Shown here piece after piece: positions 50,416 to 64,000 of a DNA stretch of 64,000 nt. The first letter of the stretch is position 1. Each line of letters opens with the position of its first letter. A model generated the notes under the pieces. That model had not been told where the DNA came from. It did not search any database and was given only the letters and a program-made list of their open reading frames with translations. The stretch is from positions 419,162 to 483,161 of the forward strand of contig NZ_QRAP01000001.1 of the NCBI RefSeq assembly GCF_003363015.1, given 5' to 3'. Position numbers and translations under genes: made by a program. Source of the stretch: Enterobacillus tribolii (lineage in GTDB: Bacteria > Pseudomonadota > Gammaproteobacteria > Enterobacterales > Enterobacteriaceae).

Positions 50416-52002
50416 ATGCGTTTGGAAGTGTTTTGTGAAGACCGAATCGGTCTGACCCGCGAGCTGCTTGAACTGCTTGCGACCCGCAATATTGACCTGC
50501 GCGGTATTGAGATTGACGTCATCGGTCGTATCTATCTGAATTTTACCGAACTGGATTTTGAGACGTTCCGTCAGCTGATGGTGGAGATCCGCCGCATCAA
50601 GGGCGTAACGGACGTGCGGACGGTGCCTTATATGCCTTCCGAACGCGAGCACCGTGCGATGCGCGCCCTGCTGGAATCCCTGCCGGAACCGGTTTTCTCC
50701 ATCGATATGAAAGGAAAGGTGGAACTGGCCAACCAGGCCGCACTGACGCTGTTCGGCACCAGCGAAGAAAAAATCAGCAATCAAACGGTAAATAACCTGA
50801 TAAGCGGCTACAACTTCCTGCGTTGGCTGGAAAGCGAGGACGTGAAACCGCATGCGGAGAAGGTGGTGATCCGCGGGCAGGACTACCTGATGGACATCAC
50901 GCCGATTAACCTGGGCGAAGGGCAGGCTGCCGATGCGCCGGTCGGCGCCGTCGTGGTGCTGAAGTCGGCCATTCGCATCGGGCGGCAGTTGCAGAACCTG
51001 AGCGTTAATGATGACAGCGAGTTCGGCCATGTGATTGCCGTCAGCGCAAAAATGCGTCAGGTACTGGATCAGGCGCGCAAACTGGCGATGCTGGATGCGC
51101 CGCTGCTGATCACGGGCGATACCGGCACCGGCAAAGATTTGCTGGCGCACGCCTGCCATCTGCGCAGCCCGCGCGGCAAACAGCCGTTTCTGGCGCTGAA
51201 CTGTGCGGCGTTGCCGGATGAAGTGGCGGAAAGCGAGCTGTTCGGCCACGCTCCCGGTGCGTATCCCAATGCCCTGGAAGGAAAAAAAGGCTTTTTCGAG
51301 CAGGCTAACGGCGGCTCGGTGTTGCTTGACGAAATCGGCGAAATGTCGCCGCGTATGCAGACCAAACTGCTGCGTTTCCTCAATGACGGTACATTCCGGC
51401 GCGTTGGCGAAGATCATGAGATTCGTGTGGACGTGCGCGTTATCTGCGCCACGCAGAAGAACCTGATCGATCTGGTGCAACAGGGGCAGTTCCGCGAAGA
51501 CCTTTATTACCGCCTTAACGTGCTGACCATTACGATCCCGCCGCTGCGCGAGCGTCAGCAGGACATCATGCCGCTGACCGAACTGTTTGTTTCCCGCTTT
51601 GCCGATGAGCAGGGGCTGCCGCGGCCGAAGCTGGCGCCGGAGCTGAACGCGTTTCTCAGCCAGTACGGCTGGCCGGGCAACGTGCGCCAGCTCAAGAACG
51701 CCATCTACCGGGCGCTGACGCAGCTGGAAGGTTATGAGCTGCGGCCGCAGGATATCGTATTGCCGGCCTTTGAAGCCGAAATGACGATGGGCGACGAAGT
51801 GCTCGACGGTTCGCTGGATGAGATCTGCAAGCGCTTTGAGCGCTCGGTGCTGACCCGCCTGTACCGCAACTATCCCAGCACCCGCAAGCTGGCGAAACGT
51901 CTGGGCGTGTCTCATACGGCCATCGCCAATAAACTGCGCGAATACGGTTTGAGCGCACGCAAGACGGGCGATACGGCGATGACGGAAGACGCTGAAGAGT
52001 AG
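50416..52002 (+). CDS. tyrR: Aromatic amino acid transcriptional regulator TyrR
   Basis: 528 residues from ATG 50416 (E. coli 513). An N-terminal ACT domain (MRLEVFCEDRIGLTRELLELL) is followed by a PAS domain (LLESLPEPVFSIDMKGKVELAN), an AAA+ domain with Walker A GDTGTGKDL, and a FIS-type HTH (LAKRLGVSHTAIANKLREYG). The GAFTGA sigma-54 loop is replaced (GHAPGAYPNAL), as in E. coli TyrR, which works with sigma-70. It regulates aromatic biosynthesis and transport genes. The extra length is a C-terminal tail. Confidence 0.96.
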   Translation: MRLEVFCEDRIGLTRELLELLATRNIDLRGIEIDVIGRIYLNFTELDFETFRQLMVEIRRIKGVTDVRTVPYMPSEREHRAMRALLESLPEPVFSIDMKGKVELANQAALTLFGTSEEKISNQTVNNLISGYNFLRWLESEDVKPHAEKVVIRGQDYLMDITPINLGEGQAADAPVGAVVVLKSAIRIGRQLQNLSVNDDSEFGHVIAVSAKMRQVLDQARKLAMLDAPLLITGDTGTGKDLLAHACHLRSPRGKQPFLALNCAALPDEVAESELFGHAPGAYPNALEGKKGFFEQANGGSVLLDEIGEMSPRMQTKLLRFLNDGTFRRVGEDHEIRVDVRVICATQKNLIDLVQQGQFREDLYYRLNVLTITIPPLRERQQDIMPLTELFVSRFADEQGLPRPKLAPELNAFLSQYGWPGNVRQLKNAIYRALTQLEGYELRPQDIVLPAFEAEMTMGDEVLDGSLDEICKRFERSVLTRLYRNYPSTRKLAKRLGVSHTAIANKLREYGLSARKTGDTAMTEDAEE

Positions 52003-52008
52003 GGCGAA

Positions 52009-52037
52009 AAAAATCCCGGTCACTGACCGGGATTTTT
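52009..52037. terminator. Bidirectional terminator between tyrR and yciA
   Basis: AAAAATCCCGGTC pairs with GACCGGGATTTTT around a 3-nt centre, with A and T tracts on both sides; the flanking genes are convergent. Confidence 0.9.
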
Positions 52038-52041
52038 ATAT

Positions 52042-52470
52042 TTAGTCTTTGGCGCCGAGCCTGAAGTTTTCTTTGCCGGGCGGCAGGCTGCGCGGCTTGT
52101 TATTATCGTCCACGGCGACATAGGTGAAAATGGCTTCGGTGACGCAGTAGCGCTGCCCGATGGGGTTGGAAGAGACCTTCTTGACCCACACTTCAATATT
52201 AATCGTAATAGAGCTGCGGCCGGTCTGGATGCAGCGTGCGTAGCAGCACACCACGTCGCCCACGGCGACCGGTTTCAGGAACGTAATGCCGTTAACGGCG
52301 ACCGTCACTACCCGGCCTTCCGCTACTTCTTTGGCCTGAATCGCGCCGCCAATATCCATTTGCGACATGATCCAGCCGCCGAAAATATCTCCGTTGGCAT
52401 TGGTGTCGGCCGGCATCGCCAGGGTCCGCAATACCAGCTCGCCCTGAGGTAAACGCAGTTTCTCGCTCAT
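52042..52470 (-). CDS. yciA: Acyl-CoA thioester hydrolase YciA
   Basis: 142 residues (E. coli 132, difference in the C-terminal tail). Hotdog-fold thioesterase with RTLAMPADTNANGDIFGGWIMSQMD, where Asn and Asp form the active site of this family. It hydrolyses a broad range of acyl-CoAs. Lies just after yciB on the same strand. Confidence 0.94.
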   Translation of the reverse strand: MSEKLRLPQGELVLRTLAMPADTNANGDIFGGWIMSQMDIGGAIQAKEVAEGRVVTVAVNGITFLKPVAVGDVVCCYARCIQTGRSSITINIEVWVKKVSSNPIGQRYCVTEAIFTYVAVDDNNKPRSLPPGKENFRLGAKD

Positions 52471-52507
52471 AATGTCAATTGTATCAATCTTTCAGGTTAG
52501 TAAATTT

Positions 52508-53095
52508 TTAAGGGTCGTTTTTCGCCGGCGGCTGTTCCTGGCTTTCTGCAACGCCGCTCCCTTTCTGCTCCGGCGACATGTGACGGTAGATGTAAACGCC
52601 GCTCAGCAGCGTAAAGACCAGCGTGGCCGCCGTCAGTCCGAATACCTTGAAGTTCACCCATACGTTCTGCGGCAGCCAGAAGGCGACGTAGATATTGACC
52701 AGGCCGCACGCCAGAAAGAACAGGGACCAGGCGATGTTGAGGCGGGACCAGACCATATCCGGCAGGCTGATTTCCTTGCCGAGCATGCGCTGAATCAGCG
52801 GTTTCTTCATGATTACCTGACTGACCAGCAGCGCCAGGGCAAACAGGGCATAGATGATGGTTACTTTCCATTTAATAAACAGATCGTTGTGGAACACCAG
52901 CGTCAGCGTGCCGAAGATCGCGACCATGACAAACGTCACCAGCGTCATCTTTTCCACTTTACGGTACTTCACCCAGGTGATGATCAGCGCCACTGCAGTC
53001 GCGGCGATCAGCGCGCCGGAGGCGACAAAAATGTCGTAAAGCTTGTAACAAGCAAAGAAGACGATCAGGGGGAGAAAATCCAGGAGTTGCTTCAT
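52508..53095 (-). CDS. yciB: Inner-membrane-spanning protein YciB (IspZ family)
   Basis: 195 residues, five or more membrane segments, starting [23 protein letters not shown], the family signature. The C-terminal 16 residues are a polar tail absent in shorter members. Implicated in envelope integrity and septation. Between yciA and the SulP gene; in E. coli yciC follows directly. Confidence 0.94.
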
Positions 53096-53343
53096 ATATC
53101 AATCCATAAAACGATAACTGCGGAACTATACCTGATTAAGGCGGCGGAGTGTACCGCACATGTGCCGCCCGTGTATGTCTTATTATGTCGCTCCCCGGTG
53201 CGTACGGCCCGCTTTTTTGCATAACATTACAAGCTGGCATACCGCTTGCTACTCACTTGCGTAGTTGGAGGGGAACACGCATGATATAACCATTGCCCTG
53301 CTAACTTCGCGGGGCGGAAGATTTTTAAAGCGGGTGGACTGGC

Positions 53344-55095
53344 ATGCAAATTAAATGGGTTCAGGGATGGATGCCCGGACTTAGTCACTTGATGGGGTAT
53401 CAGAAAGAGTGGCTGAAATGCGACATGCGCGCGGGGTTGTCGGTTGCGGCGGTGGCGTTGCCGGTGGCGATCGCCTATGCGGAACTGGCGGGCGTAAATG
53501 CCATCGTGGGGCTTTACTCCTGCGTGCTGCCGATGATTGCCTATGCGCTTTTCGGTTCGTCCCGGCAGGTGATTGTCGGGCCGGACACCGCGACCTGCGC
53601 GGTGATTGCCGCGGTGGTTACGCCGCTGGCGGCGGGCAACGAGGTGTTGCACTGGCAGCTCTGTATCATGATGACGCTGATGACCGGATTCTGGTGCCTG
53701 ATTGCCAGCCGTTTCCGGCTCGGCGCGCTGGCAGACCTGCTGTCGCGCCCGATTCTGACCGGGCTGCTTAACGGCCTGACCATCACCATCATCGTTTCTC
53801 AATTGGGGAAAATTTTCGGCTTCCACTCCAGCGCCTCGCAACTGATCGAACGGCTCATTGCCTTGCCGTTTGATATTCTCAACAGCGAGTGGCCGACCCT
53901 GTTGCTGTCCGCCGGAACGCTGCTGATCCTGATCGGCGTGAAGAAGCTGCGCCCCGGCTGGCCGGGGCCGTTGCTGGCGATGCTGGTGGCGATGCTGCTG
54001 GTGTGGGGATTCGATCTGTCTCAGCACGGCATTGAAACCATCGGCAGCTTCAGCGCCGGTTTGCCGGTCGTGGAACTGCCGAGCTTCCAGCCCGGCCTGC
54101 TGCGTGATTTGGTGCTTCCCTCGTTTAACCTGGCGTTGATCAGCTTTGTCAGCCTGATGCTGACCGCGCGCAGCTTCGGGGCGCGAAATGGTTATGACGT
54201 CGACGCCGATACCGAATTCCGTGCGCTGGGCGTCGCTAATATCGTTTCCGGCCTGTCGCTGGGGTTTGCCATCAGCGGCACCAGCTCCCGCACGGCGGTG
54301 AATGACGCCAACGGCGGCAAGAGCCAGCTGGTTTCCATTATCGCCGCGCTGGTCATCGGCGTGGTGCTGCTGTTTTTTACTTCGCCGCTGCAATATATCC
54401 CGGTTTCGTCGCTGGGCATCATTCTGGTGTATGCGTCCTGGTCGCTGCTGGACATCAAAACCATCGTACAACTGCGTAAACGTAACCCGTCTGCCTACGG
54501 GTTGGCGTTGTTTACCTTTATCAGCGTGTTGCTGGTCGGCGTTATGCCCGGCATCGGGCTGGCGGTGCTGCTTGGCCTGATGCAGTTTTTCCGCACCGTG
54601 TTCCGCCCGACCGAGCAATTGCTGGGCACCAATGAAGAGGGGATGATTCATTCATTGGGTAACGGCAATCAGGTCCGGGCGGTGGAGGGCGTGCTGATGT
54701 ACCGCTTTAACTCGCCGCTGACCTACTTCAACGCCGCCTATTTTAAGCGCCGCATCCTGAACCTGGTGGACGGCATGCCGTTTCAGGCCCATTGGGTGGT
54801 GATTGATGCGGTGCCTTGCTTTACCTACGCCGACATCAGCGTGCTGGCAATGATTGAAGAACTGAAGCGCGATTTGCGTTTGCGTAACGTCAAGCTGGTG
54901 CTGGCGGGGCGTAAAACGGAGCTGAAGCGCTGGTTTGGCGAAAACCGTAAATCCGGGGAGGAGAAGGGGCTGACTTTCGTCTCCGACCTCTACTTGGCGC
55001 TGAAGCTGATTCAGAGCAGCGAGCGGGCGAAAGAAGATGAACCGGAGCAGGATGCGGAAGAGATAAAGACGGAAGGTATCGCAGCGGGGGCCTGA
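53344..55095 (+). CDS. SulP-family anion transporter with STAS domain
   Basis: 583 residues, no clear Shine-Dalgarno. About 12-14 membrane segments with the SLC26 signature YAELAGVNAIVGLYSCVLP near residue 45 and ALFGSSRQVIVGPDTAT. A cytoplasmic STAS domain (about 435-555) includes VLMYRFNSPLTYFNAAYF and VIDAVPCFTYADISVLAMI. Candidate substrates are sulfate, bicarbonate or dicarboxylates; E. coli DauA (YchM) is the nearest known type but this gene is not in that locus. It interrupts yciB-yciC synteny. Confidence 0.88.
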   Translation: MQIKWVQGWMPGLSHLMGYQKEWLKCDMRAGLSVAAVALPVAIAYAELAGVNAIVGLYSCVLPMIAYALFGSSRQVIVGPDTATCAVIAAVVTPLAAGNEVLHWQLCIMMTLMTGFWCLIASRFRLGALADLLSRPILTGLLNGLTITIIVSQLGKIFGFHSSASQLIERLIALPFDILNSEWPTLLLSAGTLLILIGVKKLRPGWPGPLLAMLVAMLLVWGFDLSQHGIETIGSFSAGLPVVELPSFQPGLLRDLVLPSFNLALISFVSLMLTARSFGARNGYDVDADTEFRALGVANIVSGLSLGFAISGTSSRTAVNDANGGKSQLVSIIAALVIGVVLLFFTSPLQYIPVSSLGIILVYASWSLLDIKTIVQLRKRNPSAYGLALFTFISVLLVGVMPGIGLAVLLGLMQFFRTVFRPTEQLLGTNEEGMIHSLGNGNQVRAVEGVLMYRFNSPLTYFNAAYFKRRILNLVDGMPFQAHWVVIDAVPCFTYADISVLAMIEELKRDLRLRNVKLVLAGRKTELKRWFGENRKSGEEKGLTFVSDLYLALKLIQSSERAKEDEPEQDAEEIKTEGIAAGA

Positions 55096-55112
55096 GGCCC
55101 CCATGTTTTTTT
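55086..55112 (+). terminator. Terminator overlapping the SulP gene end
   Basis: GGGGGCC (55086-55092) pairs with GGCCCCC (55096-55102); the loop is the TGA stop codon. A run of seven T follows. Confidence 0.85.
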
Positions 55113-55857
55113 ACGCTTTAACCAGCATGTAGAGCCGGAACAGATAGATAATCAGCATGGCGGAGATCACATTGCTGAGCGTATTCAGCAAGATGGTGCC
55201 GACGGTCGGATGCAGCGCCGTCATACCGCTCACCAGCAGCAGCAACGCCAGCTTGGCGGCCAGCCAGAGCAGGATCGCCGGGCTGATAAGGCGCACGTTG
55301 GCGAAAGAACGTTTGAAACTGGCGCGAATGGCGCTGAACACCCCAATCCGATCGTTCACCATCATAATTGGCGCCAGCGCCAGGCCAACGGCTAAAATAA
55401 TGCCCGGTACGATAAACAGCGTGATACCCAACTGAACCATCAGGGTGCACAGAAACATCAGCAGAAGCAGGCGCGGCAGCAACGGCGCTGAAAAGCCGAT
55501 GGCGCGCAGCGCGCTGACGCGATTTCCCTGAGAGGCCATCGGGATCAGCACCAGCATACCTCCCAGCAGCAACACGTTGCCGATCAGCGAAGCGAAGCTG
55601 GCGGCGGCGGAAACCTTCAGCAGCACCATCTGTTGTTCCGGCGACATCCGTTGGATCATCTCTTGCAGCCCGATACCACTCCCCAGGTCCGCACCGCCGG
55701 TCGTCAGAATTTTCAGCTCCTCCGCGCCGGGAGTAAACGTTTGATTCAGGATTACCGTGATGAACGCCGTTAACAGCGCCAATAACAGGATAGTCACCAG
55801 CTGATTGCGCAAAAAATTGAAGGTGTCACGATACAATGTGCTGGCCATAATTGGCAT
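55111..55857 (-). CDS. yciC: YciC family inner-membrane protein (UPF0259)
   Basis: 248 residues from ATG 55857 with AAGGAGC 6 nt upstream (E. coli 247). About six membrane segments and the family block [24 protein letters not shown] are visible; the end [22 protein letters not shown] is nearly the same as in E. coli. Role unknown. Confidence 0.92.
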
Positions 55858-56262
55858 GTAAATGCTCCTTGGCGTTAAAACAGAAAATCATTCAGGTGGA
55901 TAATTGTACCCGAACAATTGTACCTGAACATCCGCGCGGGAACATCCTGTCATAAAAACTGCCGGTGTTTATTTGAGCAATTTAGGGTAACCGCAGTATT
56001 TATAGTGACCCTTTAATTATTTTATCCGGAACGATAAGGCAATGTTTCATGCGTCAAAATTATTTTGAATAAATTCCTGTTTTATGTTAATTAGCGGTAA
56101 AATTTGATGTGAATCAATTTCATGCAGAACAAACTGTTAATTAAAATAATAAATGAGTCATATGGCATTAATTGATTAAAAAGATGTGATCTGGGTTAAA
56201 TCAAAAATAATCCCCAATAGGTATATTGCCCATGAAAAAAACCACACAAAAGGAAGGGGATG
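55858..56262. promoter_or_regulatory. AT-rich ompW control region
   Basis: 405 bp, strongly AT-rich. Contains a perfect FNR box (56104-56117) and a TGTGAT half-site at 56185-56190. TAAAAT at 56142-56147 is a possible -10. No gene is visible. Confidence 0.6.
56104..56117. promoter_or_regulatory. FNR box upstream of ompW
   Basis: TTGATGTGAATCAA matches the FNR consensus TTGATnnnnATCAA exactly. Its centre is about 43 bp upstream of the start site predicted from TAAAAT, close to a class II activator position. E. coli ompW is FNR-activated. Confidence 0.75.
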
Positions 56263-56916
56263 ATGAAAAAATTAACAGTTGCGCTTTTTATCGCCGCCGC
56301 ATTGGCGCCGTCTTTGGCCTCTGCACACGAAGCGGGTGATATTTTAGTGCGTGCCGGGAGCGCGACCGTGCGTCCGACCGCAGGGTCTGACAGCGTTCTG
56401 GGCGGGCTGGGTAGTTTTGACGTTGATAACAATACTCAGTTGGGACTGACCTTTGGCTATATGATCACCGACAACATCGGTGTGGAACTGCTGGCTGCAA
56501 CGCCGTTCCGTCATAAAGTCGCGCTGAAAAATGGTCCCGGTGCCGATCTGGGGACGCTGGCGACGGTAAGACACCTGCCGCCGACCCTGATGGCGCAGTA
56601 TTACTTCGGCAGTAAAGAAGACAAACTGCGTCCGTATATGGGTATCGGCGTAAACTACACCACGTTCTTTGACGAGAAGTTTAACAGCACCGGGAAAGAT
56701 GCCGGGCTGTCAAACCTGAGTCTGGATGATTCCTGGGGTGTAGCCGGTCAGGTAGGTCTGGATTATCTGGTTACCGACCGCTGGATGCTTAACGCCTCCG
56801 TTTGGTGGATGAACATCGAAACTGACGTTAAGTTTAAAGCGGGTCCGGACAGCCAGACCGTTAACACCCGTATCGACCCGTGGGTGTTCATGTTCGGCGC
56901 AGGCTATCGCTTCTGA
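56263..56916 (+). CDS. ompW: Outer membrane protein W
   Basis: 217 residues from the second of two adjacent ATGs, after AGGAAGGGG. Signal peptide cleaved after ASA. The mature start HEAGDILVRAGSATVRPT, then LTFGYMITDNIGVELLAATPF and the terminal Phe (FGAGYRF) are typical of the eight-stranded OmpW barrel. It carries small hydrophobic compounds; expression responds to oxygen and osmolarity. Confidence 0.94.
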   Translation: MKKLTVALFIAAALAPSLASAHEAGDILVRAGSATVRPTAGSDSVLGGLGSFDVDNNTQLGLTFGYMITDNIGVELLAATPFRHKVALKNGPGADLGTLATVRHLPPTLMAQYYFGSKEDKLRPYMGIGVNYTTFFDEKFNSTGKDAGLSNLSLDDSWGVAGQVGLDYLVTDRWMLNASVWWMNIETDVKFKAGPDSQTVNTRIDPWVFMFGAGYRF

Positions 56917-56966
56917 TAGATGCCCGGGAACAACCGGTAATACAGACAACGTTATACAGACAAATG

Positions 56967-56997
56967 AAAAACCCCACTTGCCCGGTGGGGTTTTTTT
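56967..56997. terminator. Bidirectional terminator between ompW and tpx
   Basis: AAAACCCCAC (56967-56976) pairs with GTGGGGTTTT (56985-56994), with a run of seven T. The genes are convergent. Confidence 0.9.
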
Positions 56998-57010
56998 ATG
57001 CCTGCGAAAC

Positions 57011-57514
57011 TTACTTCAGGGCGGCGAGTGCGGCGTCGTAATCCGGCTCTTCGGTGATTTCGCTGACCAGTTGGCTGTAAATCACGTTGTCATTATCATC
57101 AATCACCACCACGGCGCGGGCGGTAAGCCCGGCCAGCGGACCGTCGCTGATGGCGACGCCGTAGTCGTTTTTAAACTCGGCGCCGCGCAGCGTTGAAAGC
57201 GTGATAACGTTATTCAGCCCTTCCGCGCCGCAGAAACGGGACTGGGCGAAGGGCAGGTCGGCGGAGATGCACAGGACGGTCGTGTTCTCCAGCGTGCTGG
57301 CGAGTTGGTTGAATTTTCTCACCGACGCTGCGCATACGCCGGTGTCGATGCTGGGGAAAATGTTGAGCACTTTGCGCTTGCCTGCCAGACTGGAGAGCGC
57401 GACGTCGGAAAGGTCTTTGGCCACCAGTTTGAAGGCTTTGGCTTTTTCCCCCGGCTGCGGCAGTTTACCGGCAACGTGCACGGGGTTGCCCTGAAAATGA
57501 ACGGTCTGAGTCAT
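57011..57514 (-). CDS. tpx: Thiol peroxidase
   Basis: 167 residues from ATG 57514 (E. coli 168). Atypical two-Cys peroxiredoxin: peroxidatic Cys in [14 protein letters not shown] (about 61) and resolving Cys in [12 protein letters not shown] (about 95). Periplasm-associated in older reports but no signal peptide is visible here. It reduces hydrogen and alkyl peroxides with thioredoxin. Divergent from ycjG. Confidence 0.96.
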
Positions 57515-57671
57515 TGTTGGTTCTTCCTTCACAGTTGGTTAACACTTTGATGAGTTTATTCCAACACAAGTCACATTTATAGAGCCGTATCCGTAAATAA
57601 TTCTGCGGTATGGGCGTAAATCCCGGCGAATACCGGTACAGAGGCGTTCCCGTACGGTAAGGAAATAGAAG

Positions 57672-58646
57672 ATGAGAACGATTCGGAGTTATTCTGAGGT
57701 TTGGCCGTTACACACGCCGTTTGTGATTGCGCGCGGCAGCCGGACGGAAGCGCTGGTCGTCGTTGTGGAGATTGAACACGACGGCGTGGTTGGCTACGGC
57801 GAATGTACGCCCTATGCGCGTTACGGCGAAAGCGTTGAGTCGGTGCTGGCGCAACTGGCGGATATGCGCGGGCAGATTGAAAACGGCCTCGGTCGCACAG
57901 CGCTGTTGCAGGCGTTACCGCCTGGTGCGGCGCGCAATGCGCTGGACTGCGCATTGTGGGATCTGGAATGCCGCAGCAGCGGCGCATCATTGTGGCAGCG
58001 TTGCGGCGTGGAATCGCCGGCGCAGGTGATAACCGCCCAGACTGTGTCCATTGATGAACCGGAGCGGATGGCGGCGGTGGCAAAACGTCTGCATCAGACC
58101 GGCGCGACGTTGCTGAAGGTTAAACTGGATAACCGGCTGATTGCCGAAAGGCTGATCGCGATACGCAGCGCGGTGCCGGAAGCGACGCTGATCGTTGACG
58201 CCAATGAATCCTGGCAGGCTGATGGGCTGGCGGAGCGTTGCGTGCTGCTGGCTGAACTGGGCGTGGCGATGCTGGAGCAGCCGTTGCCTGCCGGTGATGA
58301 TGCCGTGCTGGCGAGTTTTACGCACCCGTTGCCGGTATGCGCGGACGAAAGCTGTCATACCCGTGCGGATTTAGCCGCGTTAGCCGGGCGTTACGACATG
58401 ATTAACATTAAGTTGGATAAAACCGGCGGGCTGACGGAAGCGCTGAGCCTGGCGCAGGACGCGCGGCAGCGGGGATTCGGCATCATGCTGGGCTGTATGA
58501 TCTGCACGTCGCGGGCCATCAGGGCGGCGCTGCCGCTGGCGCCCGCGGCGCGTTTCGTCGATCTCGACGGCCCGACATGGCTGGCCGGCGATGCGCAGCC
58601 GGCGCTGGACTTCGGCTGCGGCATTATTCGTCTCGATCAGGCGTAA
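57672..58646 (+). CDS. ycjG: L-Ala-D/L-Glu epimerase
   Basis: 324 residues (E. coli 321). Enolase superfamily: N-terminal capping domain, then KVKLD (catalytic Lys motif near 152), VDANESW (first metal ligand Asp), LEQPL (Glu), ADESC (Asp) and NIKLDKTGG (second Lys). It epimerises the L-Ala-D-Glu dipeptide released by MpaA so that murein peptides can be degraded. Convergent with mpaA, sharing 10 bp. Also called ykfB-like. Confidence 0.93.
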   Translation: MRTIRSYSEVWPLHTPFVIARGSRTEALVVVVEIEHDGVVGYGECTPYARYGESVESVLAQLADMRGQIENGLGRTALLQALPPGAARNALDCALWDLECRSSGASLWQRCGVESPAQVITAQTVSIDEPERMAAVAKRLHQTGATLLKVKLDNRLIAERLIAIRSAVPEATLIVDANESWQADGLAERCVLLAELGVAMLEQPLPAGDDAVLASFTHPLPVCADESCHTRADLAALAGRYDMINIKLDKTGGLTEALSLAQDARQRGFGIMLGCMICTSRAIRAALPLAPAARFVDLDGPTWLAGDAQPALDFGCGIIRLDQA

Positions 58647-59338
58647 GTCAGTAAATCCAGCGCGCCGGGCAGGTATTTCTCGCTGGCCTCATCCGCAGAA
58701 ACAGGCGGCAGCTCCAGCGTAATGCAGTGCAGGTTGATGTCGGCGCACCAACTGCCGAAAGAACCCGGTGTTTCGTAACCAACGGAAGAAACCAGCGGCA
58801 GACCGAAACCGGCGGCGAGCTGCTGGCCCAGCGCAGAGTGCGCAGGGTCTTCCACGCAGGCCAGCGGTTCATGCAGCGATACCACCCATGCCGGTTTCAG
58901 GCGGTGAATCAAATGACACAGCGCCTGGGTTTCCGGTTCGGAACCGGCGTACCCGCCGGTGGACAGACGCACATCGCGTTCGGGGCTGGCGCTGTTCCAG
59001 CGGTAAACGGTAGCGCCGGGCTGCCAGTTGGCGGCCGGGAAGTTACGGTTGAGATCCACGCCGCGTGAATTCGCGCGCAGCCCGAGCTGGCAGCCGTCGG
59101 GATTCACCGCCAGAATAACGGAGTGACGCAGCGGCTGTTGCAGGCTGCGCAGGGCGCAGGACAGGGTGACGACGGCGGCGGTTTCATCACCGTGCGTACC
59201 GGCGATAATCAATCCTGCATGGCGCTCGGCCGATTGCGCCGGGAAAAAAAGCAATGGCGCGCCTAAGTGCGAACGGCCGTAAGTTTCCGGCTCCAGCCTG
59301 AAGCAGCCGCGCTCAGTACGCGGGAGAAGGCGTGTCAT
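58637..59338 (-). CDS. mpaA: Murein peptide amidase A
   Basis: 233 residues, slightly shorter than E. coli MpaA. M14 metallocarboxypeptidase fold: GTHGDETAA (zinc ligands His and Glu), GVDLNRNFP (Arg and Asn substrate binding), SLHEP (third zinc His) and a late ITLELPP (catalytic Glu). It cleaves the gamma-D-Glu-diaminopimelate bond of murein tripeptide in the cytoplasm. Works with ycjG, mppA and nagZ in wall recycling. Confidence 0.93.
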   Translation of the reverse strand: MTRLLPRTERGCFRLEPETYGRSHLGAPLLFFPAQSAERHAGLIIAGTHGDETAAVVTLSCALRSLQQPLRHSVILAVNPDGCQLGLRANSRGVDLNRNFPAANWQPGATVYRWNSASPERDVRLSTGGYAGSEPETQALCHLIHRLKPAWVVSLHEPLACVEDPAHSALGQQLAAGFGLPLVSSVGYETPGSFGSWCADINLHCITLELPPVSADEASEKYLPGALDLLTYA

Positions 59339-59825
59339 TTTTCATTTCCTTTCATCGCTGTTCGTATCTGTATTAATCCTCAAGCGCCTAACGGAATCAA
59401 TATGATGATACCTAATCTGTTCTCTTTTTCCGCCGGATGAGGTCAGGTTGGTGAAATCTTGCATCAGGCGTTAAAAACGCCGTCATTATATTCAGAAAAA
59501 ATATAACAACGCTGAAAATTCATAAAAATATATTAACAATGGCGGGTGATAAAATATTTTTATCATGATGGCCTCATCGGTGAATAACCCGCGCTGCTAA
59601 GTTGGCTTCTTTATAACCTGCTGTTATTTATTGTAAATACCTCACTGCGAGTGTTGGTGATGAACATCATTTTTCCAAATGAGGATTTAACAGGTCTTAT
59701 GATTTAAGCGAAGTTCAGGCTGCTTATTATTCTCTCCGGGCGCCCTGATGGTGCAAATCATACTTGCAGGCGGCTCAACGCATCGTTGCTTAAACCTGCT
59801 TAAATCTTTTCTCAGGAGAAATCTC
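59339..59825. other. AT-rich region upstream of the 878-residue gene
   Basis: 487 bp with no credible gene. It must carry promoters for mpaA (minus) and for the downstream gene (plus). A short hairpin GGCGTTAAAAACGCC lies at about 59467-59481. I see no named operator. Confidence 0.4.
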
Positions 59826-62462
59826 ATGCAGCTCACCTTTTCGTTATCGATTAATGATAATGCCTGGTATCCGACGGCTGAACTGACCGGCTTTAAATCT
59901 GAATCCGGCGGTAGCGCTGACGTTCATAATAAAATGGTGCTGGTGTTTACCGGGCCAGGGAAAGTCGCAGAGGGGGATATCAACGTTGAATCCAGCCCCT
60001 GGCGCGAGTTTAAAAAGACGGTGGAGTCGAGCGAAGTCGGCAGCGGTCTATTCGACATCAAGGTTACGCTTGCGCCGGTTGACGGCCAGCCGCTTGGCGA
60101 CGCGGTGAGCAAGGTACATATCGGGCTGAATAAATCGTCGGATACGGCGCCGGAGTGGTCTGATTTCGCTGATACGTTTGCCGCTGCGGCTGATGAAGAT
60201 CCTGCGGTAGCCGGTATGCTGGTGGTGAATTGCGCTGCGGCGCCGGCAGGGCTGGACGGGACAGAGCTGGAACTGGTGCTGGTGCGCGGTGACAGCATTG
60301 AACGCCTGGCGCCGAAATTCGGACAGGTTTCCTCATTCCCGCTATCCATCGGGACTTACAGCGTCTCTGCGAATGCCCTGAAAACCGCGGACGCCACGCT
60401 GTGTGCCTCAACTACGCTGAGCAGCGGCGAAGTGGCGATTAAGAAAGGGGAGTCTGCGGCGCTTAACGTTGCTTTCGGCGCCGTCAAACGCGGGACGACC
60501 CTCGACGTGACTCTGGATTTGTCCGCGATCCCTGAACTGGCAGGTGAAGACCTGCAGGTACGCTATGCCGAAAATAATGTCGTGAAGATGAGCTTTACGC
60601 TGCAGTCAGGCCAGACGCAGCGCCTGGAAGGGCTGCCGGTGGCAGGGGGCTTTACCGTCAGCGTCGCCGGACTGAAGCTGAACAACACCGATTATCAGTT
60701 TAGTGACCGTGCCGGGAACCTGGATGGAAAATATCATCAGGTTGATTTTACCGGGCTTCAGGTCAGCCAGAAAGACGAGCGTGTTTCCGGCGCGCAAAAG
60801 CTCACTGTTAACGTGCGTGCGGAAAAAGCCGTCGCCGGTAAAGCGCTGACCCTGCGTTTGGTTGATACTTCTTCCTCCGTTGCGCGTGAGTACCGTATTG
60901 ACGCCATTCCGGCACAAAACGGCAGCGTGGTGTCGCCCTTTACCGTTGCGCCGGGGACTTACGCGGTGAAATCGGACTCCTTCATTCTCGACAGCATCGT
61001 GCATTATACCGACGTGACTCCCAGCCCCCTGACGGTTGTCAGCGGCGCAGCGGCGAGCCTGACGCTGGAAATTATTGAAGGGGCGGACCTGCGCGTTAAA
61101 GGCTTCCCGGATTATCTTTCCTTCGGCGCCTGCGCCAACATGTCACCTTCCAACGTAGATGATTTTGTTGCCGCGCGCGTGTCGTCGATCTTCAAATACT
61201 CCGGCGATGACGGCATGGGCGATGCGGATGTTTTCCTGGCGCCGGAAAAAGAACCGACGAACCAGGTGATCCAGATGGCGCGCAACGTGTCGGCCAAGCT
61301 GGGCGATGCTATGCCGGTGCTGCCGATGATGGTGTCTTACACCTGTAACCTGTCGCTCGGCGACGTAGAGAAAATCATCAAGGATCCGGTACGTCATAAA
61401 TACAGCTTTGCCAACTTCATTCAGGCGCTGCAAATGGCGCAGGCGATGAAAGATGATGAGCATCCGGTGCCGGCTGGTTTTATCGTTAACCCGGATTACC
61501 TTGGCGAATGTCAGAAGAGCGGTTTTGCGCCGACGCTGGCAATTCCGGTACGTGAACCGCTGGCTGAAGCGCTGGAACATCACGGCGTTGACATTGCTAT
61601 TCCGGCGGGCATCACCAATACCCTCAAAGGCTATGTTAAAGCGGTTAACTGGCTGACGCGCGTCGTCGCGCCGGACGTAGTGCTTGGCTGGCAGGTCAAC
61701 CTGTGGGGCGTGGCGGGTTCCCAGTGGATTTACCATGACTTTGAGTATGAAGTGGTATTCGATCCGGCAGACGGAAAGAACAAGAAAATGACCATCACGC
61801 CGCAGCGGGCTGGGCAGCTAACCGCCGAGTATGCGCTGCTGGTGGGGATTTTCGAGGATACCGCGTTTGAACGTCGCGATGGCACCAAGGATGTCGCCAA
61901 AGGTGCCGATTTCATGGCGATTGACCGCTATGAGGCGGATGACTTTACGCTGCGCTCTTATGCCAATGGCTATTGCTATTCACCTTACGAATGGGCACGC
62001 ACGTTTGATTTCTGCGCCGCGGTCAGCCGTTACCTGCGTAAACCGGTACTGCCCTGGCAGTTCCCGGCCAGCCACCTGGCGACGAAGATGGATCAGGTTG
62101 ATGCCGCCTTCGACGAACAACACTGGGGGAGCGGCGGCAGCTACATTCTGGGACATGCGGAGATCGGTTCCTCCGTTGACGCCATCAATGACACGCTGCT
62201 CGATCTGGCGTTCAGCCCGGCCTTCGTGGACATGATGGGGAATGATACCCGTGAGCTGTTCTCCCGCCATACGTGGGATCTGACTGAGCCTAAGTACATG
62301 GATTTCCCGGCAAGGGGGATTTTCCATGTTCAGCTGGGCGGCGGTGCGACCACCGGCGTTGTCAGCGCCGTCGGGGATACCAGCAACTGGGTACGTAACC
62401 GGCTGAATGTTTACCGTAATAACCCGGTGCCGTTCGCGGACCCGTCCGATAAGCGTAAATAA
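59826..62462 (+). CDS. Large protein of unknown function: beta-sandwich repeats plus a TIM-barrel-like domain
   Basis: 878 residues from ATG 59826, preceded by AGGAGA; the frame extends to 59748 without a ribosome site. No signal peptide or membrane segment. Residues 1-105 look like a beta-sandwich, perhaps carbohydrate-binding (WYPTAELTGF, VLVFTGPGK). Three Ig/CNA-B-like repeats follow (about 128-220, 222-320, 325-420), two with IGTYSVSAN/APGTYAVKSD motifs. Residues 425-878 alternate strands and helices in a TIM-barrel manner: GFIVNPDYLGE (551), VVLGWQVNLWG (618), ADFMAIDRYEADD (694), PVLPWQFPASH (740), YILGHAEIGS (773). Conserved-looking Glu, Asp and Trp suggest a glycosidase. I cannot assign a GH family. 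It replaces ycjY-ycjZ between mpaA and mppA. Confidence 0.7.
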   Translation: MQLTFSLSINDNAWYPTAELTGFKSESGGSADVHNKMVLVFTGPGKVAEGDINVESSPWREFKKTVESSEVGSGLFDIKVTLAPVDGQPLGDAVSKVHIGLNKSSDTAPEWSDFADTFAAAADEDPAVAGMLVVNCAAAPAGLDGTELELVLVRGDSIERLAPKFGQVSSFPLSIGTYSVSANALKTADATLCASTTLSSGEVAIKKGESAALNVAFGAVKRGTTLDVTLDLSAIPELAGEDLQVRYAENNVVKMSFTLQSGQTQRLEGLPVAGGFTVSVAGLKLNNTDYQFSDRAGNLDGKYHQVDFTGLQVSQKDERVSGAQKLTVNVRAEKAVAGKALTLRLVDTSSSVAREYRIDAIPAQNGSVVSPFTVAPGTYAVKSDSFILDSIVHYTDVTPSPLTVVSGAAASLTLEIIEGADLRVKGFPDYLSFGACANMSPSNVDDFVAARVSSIFKYSGDDGMGDADVFLAPEKEPTNQVIQMARNVSAKLGDAMPVLPMMVSYTCNLSLGDVEKIIKDPVRHKYSFANFIQALQMAQAMKDDEHPVPAGFIVNPDYLGECQKSGFAPTLAIPVREPLAEALEHHGVDIAIPAGITNTLKGYVKAVNWLTRVVAPDVVLGWQVNLWGVAGSQWIYHDFEYEVVFDPADGKNKKMTITPQRAGQLTAEYALLVGIFEDTAFERRDGTKDVAKGADFMAIDRYEADDFTLRSYANGYCYSPYEWARTFDFCAAVSRYLRKPVLPWQFPASHLATKMDQVDAAFDEQHWGSGGSYILGHAEIGSSVDAINDTLLDLAFSPAFVDMMGNDTRELFSRHTWDLTEPKYMDFPARGIFHVQLGGGATTGVVSAVGDTSNWVRNRLNVYRNNPVPFADPSDKRK

Positions 62463-62498
62463 GAAGGACGTCTGCCTGCGGCACGGACGCCGCCACTT

Positions 62499-62526
62499 CC
62501 GGGCATCATCGTTTGATGATGCCCGG
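62499..62526 (+). terminator. Terminator of the 878-residue gene
   Basis: CCGGGCATCATC and GATGATGCCCGG form a 12-bp stem with a GTTT loop, followed by AATATTTCT. It lies 36 bp after the stop. Confidence 0.75.
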
Positions 62527-62729
62527 AATATTTCTGCCAAAATGAATGCCGGCCATTGTTTCATCCTGCTTGCCTCCAGAGTAAAATATACGTAATTTTC
62601 CGACCATTACGCTCTCGTCTTCGTCTTTTCGGGTATCCGCACCGGCCATCATTGCCGCGTATGCGGATCAGCATGGATGCCGTAAAAAAACGGGAGTGCC
62701 GCTTAACCTCTATTTAGGATGTTGATGAC

Positions 62730-64000
62730 ATGCAAGGTTTTCGTCTCGCCGCGCTGGCGGCTTTGATCGGTTCGGGGGTAATGTCGGTACAGGCGGCCGT
62801 AGTGCCGCCGGGCACGCAGTTGGCGGATAAACAGGAAATTGTTCGTCATATTAAAGATGAGCCGGCCTCGCTGGATCCGGCCAAAGTGGTCGGGTTGCCG
62901 GAAGCGCAGGTGGTGCGCGATCTGTTCGAGGGGTTGGTGAATCAGGGGGCGGACGGGCAGCCGTTGCCCGGTGTGGCGGCCAGCTGGCAATCGACCGACA
63001 GTAAACGCTACGTCTTCAAACTGCGCGAAAATGCGCGCTGGTCCAACGGCGAGCCGGTGACGGCCTATGACTTCGTTTATAGCTGGCAGCGCCTGGTTGA
63101 CCCTAAAACGCTGTCGCCTTTTGCCTGGTTTGCGCAGATGGCGGGCATCGCCAAAGCTCAGGATATCATCGACGGCAAAGCGCCGCCGTCCAAGCTGGGC
63201 GTCGTCGCGCCGGATTCGCATACCCTGGTGGTGCAACTGAGTAAACCGGTGCCATATTTCGTCAGCCTGTTGGCGAATTTCAGCCTCTATCCGGTGCCGC
63301 AAAAAATCGTCGAACAATACGGCAATGACTGGACCAAGCCAGAGCATCTGGTCGGTAACGGCGCATTTATGATGTCTGCGCGGGTGGTGAATGAAAAAAT
63401 CGAGCTGAAGCCGAATCCCCATTATTGGGATCATGCCCATACTGTGCTGACGAAGGTGACTTTCCTGCCGATCAACCAGGAGTCGGCGGCGACCAAGCGC
63501 TATCTGGCCGATGATATCGATATCACCGAATCGTTCCCGAAAAACATGTACCAGAAGCTGCTGAAGGATATTCCGGGGCAGGTGTACACGCCCGATCAGT
63601 TGGGCACCTATTACTACGCTTTCAATACCCGCAAAGCGCCGCTGGACGACGCGCGCGTGCGCCGTGCGCTCTCTTACGCCATCGATCGTCAGGTGATTGC
63701 GCAGAAGGTGTTGGGCGCCGGTGAAAAACCGGCATGGCGCTTAACGCCTGACGTAACGGCGGGGTTTGAGCCGGAGCCGGGAGCGATGCAGAAGATGACC
63801 CAGGCTGAGCGCAACAAGCAGGCCAAAGCCTGGCTGAAAGAAGCGGGATACGGGCCGAACAAGCCGCTCAAGCTGACGCTGTTGTATAACTCTTCGGAGA
63901 ATCACCAGAAGATCGCGATTGCCGTGGCGTCGATGTGGAAGAAAGCGCTGGGCGTGCAGGTGAAGCTGGTTAACCAGGAGTGGAAAACCTATATCGACAG
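62730..64000 (+). CDS. mppA: Murein tripeptide-binding protein MppA (partial, C-terminus outside window)
   Basis: 423 residues are visible from ATG 62730 to the window end. Signal peptide cleaves near VQAA. The blocks LADKQEIVRHIKDEPASLDPA and DITESFPKNMYQKLLKDIPGQ (each cut short here), with LVNQEWKTYID at the edge, agree with E. coli MppA much better than with OppA. It hands L-Ala-gamma-D-Glu-mDap to the Opp permease for recycling. Synteny with mpaA and ycjG supports this. Confidence 0.92.
   Translation, partial: MQGFRLAALAALIGSGVMSVQAAVVPPGTQLADKQEIVRHIKDEPASLDPAKVVGLPEAQVVRDLFEGLVNQGADGQPLPGVAASWQSTDSKRYVFKLRENARWSNGEPVTAYDFVYSWQRLVDPKTLSPFAWFAQMAGIAKAQDIIDGKAPPSKLGVVAPDSHTLVVQLSKPVPYFVSLLANFSLYPVPQKIVEQYGNDWTKPEHLVGNGAFMMSARVVNEKIELKPNPHYWDHAHTVLTKVTFLPINQESAATKRYLADDIDITESFPKNMYQKLLKDIPGQVYTPDQLGTYYYAFNTRKAPLDDARVRRALSYAIDRQVIAQKVLGAGEKPAWRLTPDVTAGFEPEPGAMQKMTQAERNKQAKAWLKEAGYGPNKPLKLTLLYNSSENHQKIAIAVASMWKKALGVQVKLVNQEWKTYID

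Follow-up and report, generated by a model that had tools for sequence, protein, structure and literature searches.

The window analysed here is a stretch of 64,000 nucleotides from contig C1; the genome as a whole measures 4.93 Mb. Close to its end, an open reading frame without internal stops (59826..62462, +, stop included) encodes a leaderless protein of 878 residues, P0001, which relatives and the frame translation confirm as given in the preliminary description. Because nearly full-length relatives of P0001 exist at 56–62% identity, the frame is more than a chance one. The ribosome-binding site AGGAG (59814..59818, +), read from the sequence, lies ahead of the ATG at 59826, and the start codon followed by an aligned MQL start is present in all 14 extracted relatives of subfamily A, not all of which are independent; together they secure the start. 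An alternative ATG 78 bases upstream (904 residues) was rejected, since the extracted relatives lack that leader and the ribosome-binding site favours 59826. The gene has a G+C content of 57.1%, against 57.4% for the window and 39% for the upstream gap. It is flanked by a gene on the reverse strand (58637-59338) and a gene on the forward strand starting at 62730, which by their sequences are mpaA-like and mppA-like, respectively. The gene probably forms the end of a transcript, since a 14-pair terminator-like hairpin (62497..62528, +) lies 3' of it; the scan found four such sites against a mean of 3.9 in shuffles, the three others being stems of 5–6 pairs. P0001, like the rest of subfamily A, is encoded by a lone gene.

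P0001 belongs to an unannotated family with at least three subfamilies, namely A (about 60% identity to P0001), B (about 34%), and C (about 25%). A match to P0001 was found in 23 of the 295 genomes of an Enterobacteriaceae-level family set (own genome included), and the matches were sorted into subfamilies by identity and length. Subfamily A occurs in 11 genomes, ten besides our own at 58–62% identity, subfamily B in three (36–37%), and subfamily C in 14, where the matches come in pieces, mostly at 24–34%; A and C occur together in six genomes, and G153 matches P0001 only over residues 14–424. Subfamily A is also found in Superficieibacter electus, Klebsiella spallanzanii, Salmonella diarizonae, and Kluyvera ascorbata (56–60% identity), which may partly be the same species as genomes of the set. 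Subfamily B includes a copy on a Cupriavidus plasmid, split between two frames, and BEM41301.1 (L005) of the Serratia marcescens plasmid pE10, which is 32% identical over 98% and for which "chitinase" is an annotation name only. Subfamily C includes STM0019, a hypothetical protein of Salmonella Typhimurium, together with a paralogue from the same genome as the window. STM0019 was examined through its serovar Infantis counterpart SEENIN0B_00019 (L008), the record note of which gives STM0019. In alignment, it shares the barrel and the tandem beta domains of P0001; it has 26–27% identity to P0001 and no evident leader, but it is 120 residues longer, carries two copies of the N-terminal domain, and is located behind chiA. 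Furthermore, the class search returned distant members in 4 other genomes of 369, and the phylum search a match in 11 of 398 genomes, our own included. No relative was confirmed in viral contigs scanned with A2, P0003, P0006, and P0001. In E. coli, two of 5426 genomes match the Salmonella diarizonae gene, over 177 bases only, and a megablast with chiA and STM0019 together found nothing.

The front half of P0001 had been described as three Ig-like repeats. Tandem beta-sandwich domains are indeed seen in the AlphaFold model, which corrects their number to four, at about residues 1–126, 127–222, 223–320, and 321–420 (mean pLDDT of 10-residue blocks 45–87). The N-terminal beta domain (residues 1–126; 59826..60203, +) was delineated by hhalign to the STM0019-type domain and by the beta-rich model. 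Three probable Ig/CnaB-like beta-sandwiches follow, with approximate boundaries based on the AlphaFold model and Foldseek: residues 127–222 (60204..60491, +), 223–320 (60492..60785, +), and 321–420 (60786..61085, +). Pfam gave only a HYDIN-type Ig domain for P0001, at a chance-level E of 0.13 and below the cut-off. By profile comparison, residues 1–126 probably share ancestry with the N-terminal domain that is present twice in the STM0019-type (C) proteins, with an hhalign P of 2.2e-4 (probability 45%) for the C-type copies against A alone and 7.2e-5 (63%) against A plus B. This domain may perhaps bind carbohydrate; a CBM2-like domain was tried and rejected, with hhalign E of 0.21–0.58 against two CBM2 domains. 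The top Foldseek entries for the front half are tandem Ig/CnaB-type pilins and adhesins, and the match to PitA has an E of 1.5e-12, yet a TM of only 0.12 over the chain. Such pilins and adhesins, as the best fold matches, speak for P0001 being a non-catalytic chitin- or glycan-binding adhesin in which an inactive barrel and the Ig-like domains hold chitin or mucin, a reading that we consider unlikely in view of the conservation of the barrel.

The C-terminal half (residues 421–870; 61086..62435, +), the probable catalytic domain on the evidence of alignment, models, and identity, is probably a (beta/alpha) barrel. Its identity to four subfamily-A relatives is 70–73%, against 33–55% for the domains in front, and in our reading of the alignment eight strand-like conserved motifs follow one another in order along it. 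The full-length AlphaFold model is poor in this region. The barrel-only model reached a pLDDT of 48.9 and a pTM of 0.57 as the best of five (others 38–40), with block means of 32–90, mostly above 60, at residues about 100–285 of 462. All 50 listed matches of this low-confidence model in each of two structure comparisons are TIM-barrel proteins that come from many unrelated families. The PDB neighbours found by VIA-align have Z of at most 8.7 among the rows listed, values at which a shared overall arrangement may be all that is detected. The TIM-barrel-like domain of the preliminary description is therefore supported by the motifs and the low-confidence model rather than proven; a structure model without a TIM barrel, which it had named as contrary evidence, did not appear, but the model is poor.

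The residues D557, G621, P740, W744, Q745, P747, and Y863 are invariant over 14 divergent barrels. The motifs NPDYLGE, AIDRYEADD, and PWQFPASH singled out earlier are present, with conservation restricted to the D of NPD, D700, D705, W744, Q745, and P747. Among them, D557 of the NPD/EPD motif (61494..61496, +) and the W744-Q745 pair (62055..62060, +) are kept in 14/14 sequences, and the acidic strand end from D700 to D705 (DRYEAD; 61923..61940, +) keeps D705 in 13/14 and D700 in 12/14, with D700 replaced in the other two. The E of NPDYLGE is not general among the 14 barrels; E703 is kept in 16/16 sequences when subfamilies A, B, and C and Vibrio are taken together, but not in distant members. 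D557 is the best candidate, and the probable one, for a general acid. The invariance of D557, W744, and Q745 and the near-invariance of D700/D705 at strand ends in 14 divergent members argue against the adhesin reading, as does the much stronger conservation of the barrel relative to the front domains.

The reading of P0001 as a probable carbohydrate-active barrel protein is supported. The protein went unrecognised in every family library searched, in agreement with the earlier statement that it could not be placed in a known glycoside hydrolase family, and a clear match to a characterised family was not obtained, the resemblance to GH6 being weak. With P0001 as query, NCBIfam and PDB sequences gave no match at E<=10, PHROGs and PADLOC none at E<=0.1, and PF01341 (GH6) is not among its Pfam matches at E<=10. 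STM0019 has no PHROGs match and, in PADLOC, only AbiLi at E 0.044; a defence role was dropped on these results. GH18 (PF00704) was rejected, with no Pfam match for P0001 and hhalign scores of 12.9–19.0, and so were GH5 and GH114, with no Pfam match for P0001 and low control scores. The C paralogue L041 reaches an E of 0.047 against PF01341, below the cut-off. In the PDB profile search, profile A3 (11 relatives) matched Cel6 cellobiohydrolases at E 0.4, with VSYT paired with VIYN and NPDFLG with EPDSLG; profile A8 (14 relatives) gave chance-like matches only, and the Cel6 match was gone. The family profiles exclude L056 as well as L006, which lies in two frames, and L024, which carries one TAG.

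Against a set of seven actinobacterial GH6 proteins (A5, duplicate loci removed), the hhalign scores were 35.8 for A3, 32.9 for A6, 34.7 for the profile "big" with decayed copies, 34.2 for A8, and 45.0 for "big2", the last being the best of six versions, counting the EPD group (L122, L124, and L125), which alone scored 23.4, near its own GH5 score of 22.0. The barrel controls, run with profile versions other than A8, scored 20–22 for GH5 (15/15 loci), 15–19 for GH114 (5/5), and 12.9–19.0 for GH18 (16/20; four comparisons). Block-shuffled GH6 gave a mean of 20.3 and a maximum of 26.9 against A3 (n=100; reversed 15.1), 17.0 and 23.3 against A6 (n=100; reversed 13.6), and 19.9 and 27.6 against big2 (n=200). 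The GH6 alignment probability ranged from 14% to 67% over five profile versions, and the signal vanishes in global-mode hhalign (probability 0.04–0.07%). In alignments of this probability (14–67% only), D557 of NPD, kept in 14/14 sequences, falls on the aspartate of the GH6 EPD motif, the catalytic acid of that family, and EPD itself occurs in the relatives L122, L124, and L125. The aspartates of the other two GH6 acidic motifs, YDLPxRDC and PGESDG, are absent, with YTCNLSLG and LGGGATTG there instead (the second placed in a low-confidence stretch). Foldseek with the low-confidence barrel model returned several GH6 entries among many TIM barrels, and VIA-align no GH6 among the 50 rows listed, other TIM barrels only. 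Collectively, the strand motifs align, above all at the EPD/NPD aspartate, but the family differs from GH6 in having no significant PF01341 profile match and neither of the two other aspartate motifs; the barrel resembles GH6, remotely, more than GH5, GH18, or GH114 in these comparisons, GH6 membership is not claimed, and a shared distant ancestry is possible. The absence of the two other GH6 acidic motifs would suit an inactive barrel, and thus an adhesin. The weak GH6 resemblance itself points toward beta-1,4-glucan, as would be expected if P0001 were a hydrolase of another polymer (peptidoglycan, mucin-type or plant beta-glucan, or, as for GH6, cellulose) and its family were only a passenger of chitin loci; we regard this as rather improbable, given the company that its relatives keep.

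The claimed absence of a signal peptide holds as far as sequence and hydropathy go. The most hydrophobic 12-mer within the first 45 residues of P0001 has a mean Kyte-Doolittle value of 0.67, against 1.96 in a leader-bearing Vibrio relative; the Vibrio, L055, L057, and L060 relatives have N-terminal stretches that resemble signal peptides by eye. ChiA likewise starts without an evident leader in the sequences examined here. The Salmonella chitinase operon, as described in two reports (PMC10109510; PMC13284979), comprises chiA (stm0018) and genes for a holin (stm0015), a peptidoglycan hydrolase (stm0016), and the regulators stm0014 and stm0017, and ChiA secretion is described as abolished without the holin and the hydrolase, a route termed the type 10 secretion system (T10SS; PMC10109510). 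This type of release system is phage-derived. In Salmonella, the STM0019 gene immediately follows chiA, which encodes a GH18 chitinase. On contig C5 of the window's own genome, a gene of LysR type is followed directly by those for a holin (PF16083), a GH108 muramidase (PF05838), and a CadC-like regulator, and then by GH18 chiA and the C paralogue (gene order from the ORF list, regulators named by eye), which matches the layout reported for the Salmonella T10SS (PMC10109510).

The match to C lies 0.4–1.6 kb from the match to chiA in 10/14 C genomes (one, G061, with a short frame of 330 residues) and on a different contig in 4/14 (G051, G118, G228, and G301). G130 has a B gene, the gene for a holin (PF16931), and a chiA that includes CBM5/12 side by side on one strand, with the GH108 muramidase absent. 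This row (L042:4882-11497), next to which a LysR-type gene lies divergently, represents another T10SS-like arrangement of a chitin locus. A close chiA (E<=1e-100) is present in 9/11 A genomes versus 29/284 others (Fisher 1.8e-7, statistics that ignore relatedness) and, counted by genus, in 7/8 versus 17/146. The muramidase occurs in the same 9/11 A genomes, and the remaining two (G019 and G250) have neither. G072, G198, G257, and G277 carry two close chiA copies each. Beside the window gene, no chiA, holin, or muramidase was recognised in 52000-64000, which covers only 1.5 kb behind the gene, and the only muramidase match of the own genome is on a different contig from the P0001 gene. Around the A genes whose flanks were read, none of the three was recognised by eye, and the neighbours vary among genera. 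The lone unannotated gene turns out to represent one lineage within a family linked to chitin loci of the T10SS type, with activity and export predicted.

The preliminary description had left P0001 to an unusual export route or to the cytoplasm. This choice can be recast, as a holin and peptidoglycan hydrolase route is reported for Salmonella ChiA (PMC10109510); because of this leaderless precedent, and because C members and one B member lie beside such genes, the reading of export shifts to the T10SS. A cytoplasmic, non-exported enzyme for imported oligosaccharides would fit the missing signal peptide, the lone gene, and the two of 11 A genomes without muramidase or close chiA. We nevertheless find it very improbable, in light of the signal-peptide-like starts (by eye) of the Vibrio, L055, L057, and L060 relatives and the position of C genes and one B gene in loci with a holin. 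Furthermore, tandem beta-sandwiches ahead of a barrel are the usual architecture of extracellular proteins. ChiA, the reported cargo of the Salmonella T10SS (PMC10109510), is similarly a large chitin-locus enzyme without an evident leader, and the own genome has such a locus, but it differs in its GH18 catalytic domain, and no relation was found between the family profile and the own-genome ChiA (E 0.63).

Several relatives carry chitin-linked modules. The Vibrio relative L007, with a leader present, has PKD above and CBM5/12 below the Pfam cut-off, L058, read without its start, has ChitinaseA_N above it, and L116, L118, and L121 combine CBM_5_12_2 above the cut-off with a decayed barrel stretch. 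Pfam scans of L055, L057, L060, L115, L122, P0002, P0003, P0005, L041, and L029 gave no chitin-linked domain. The CBM5/12-type proteins L116-L121 (about 870–1200 residues) contain a degenerate stretch of the P0001-type barrel at profile positions about 94–308, but have FTKS instead of FDKY and another C-terminal domain, which has no Pfam name in the three tested (L116, L118, and L121). Vibrio chitodextrinase EndoI may perhaps be similar to them. A GH19 assignment for the C-terminal domain of L118 was unsupported (best PDB E 0.35, no Pfam name). The record note of the STM0019 homologue lists the chitodextrinase VF_A0715 at 0.0042. The decayed barrel (FTKS for FDKY) of L116-L121, with CBM5/12 in the three tested, again favours an adhesin. 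The EPD-barrel proteins L122 (from the same class), L124, and L125 have sources that include Streptomyces (annotated as a RICIN-domain protein) and Variovorax. They match the P0001 family firmly (probability 98%, E 3e-13); for L122, neither Pfam nor NCBIfam gave a match at E<=1.

The earlier suggestion of action on something new can be narrowed to chitin-type substrates, because the neighbours and attached domains of relatives are chitin-linked. The same company, kept by several relatives, argues against a hydrolase of another polymer, for which the RICIN-domain annotation of the L122-type Streptomyces relative and the reported modulation of the intestinal glycome by Salmonella chitinases (PMC9049507) would speak.

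Our favoured reading, which we hold to be somewhat probable, is that P0001 is a leaderless glycoside hydrolase of chitin type (beta-1,4-GlcNAc) that the T10SS releases and whose family is undescribed and perhaps bears a remote likeness to GH6. It is favoured because of the C genes near chiA, the own-genome chiA locus with holin and muramidase, the B gene row of G130, the co-occurrence of A and chiA, the chitin-linked domains, the invariant residues, and the GH6-like scores. Outside the cell, the C-terminal barrel would cleave chitin-type amino-sugar chains joined by beta-1,4 linkages, whether polymers or oligomers. D557 would probably be the general acid, D700 and D705 would sit at a different strand end, and W744 and Q745 would shape the site for the sugar. 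Ahead of the barrel, the four beta domains would serve as spacers and probably also as binding modules for the polymer. P0001 is predicted to exit without a signal peptide via the holin/GH108-muramidase T10SS encoded in its own genome. A more specific version, in which a new chitin-active family has a GH6-type barrel with the lone Asp acid D557 and a non-GH6 base and is co-released with GH18 ChiA through the T10SS, making STM0019 an overlooked second cargo, appears doubtful to us.

If enzymatic, the family would represent a new catalytic type for bacterial chitin use and a second cargo candidate for T10SS studies. No reported activity of any family member was found in the literature searched. 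The string STM0019 was found neither in three PLoS Pathogens papers on Salmonella chitinases, including the chiA T10SS operon paper (PMC10109510), nor in the 2026 T10SS paper (PMC13284979), and its occurrences in the literature searched were four potato papers and a study of the Salmonella Fis regulon (PMC3662779). The name is missing from these chitinase and T10SS papers although the gene comes right after chiA and its family has invariant residues resembling an active site. Five other locus tags gave an unrelated mention only in the literature searched, and a narrow search for a GH6-like chitinase family an unrelated result only.

Fragments of family members were also observed. L024 is broken by one TAG, L006 lies in two frames, and L033 is a fragment of about 130 residues. 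A C-terminal stub of about 65 residues of a subfamily-A-like gene occurs on Klebsiella, Enterobacter, and Citrobacter plasmids (L009:6001-9579, L011:10410-13988). Among the plasmid matches of P0001, 14 of the best 20 of 61 records contain the stub only, and 38/61 are conjugative. The stub of L009 lies near a Tn5403 transposase, ahead of genes for a P-type ATPase and a universal stress protein, and this segment is 91% identical to a Klebsiella spallanzanii segment with an intact gene.
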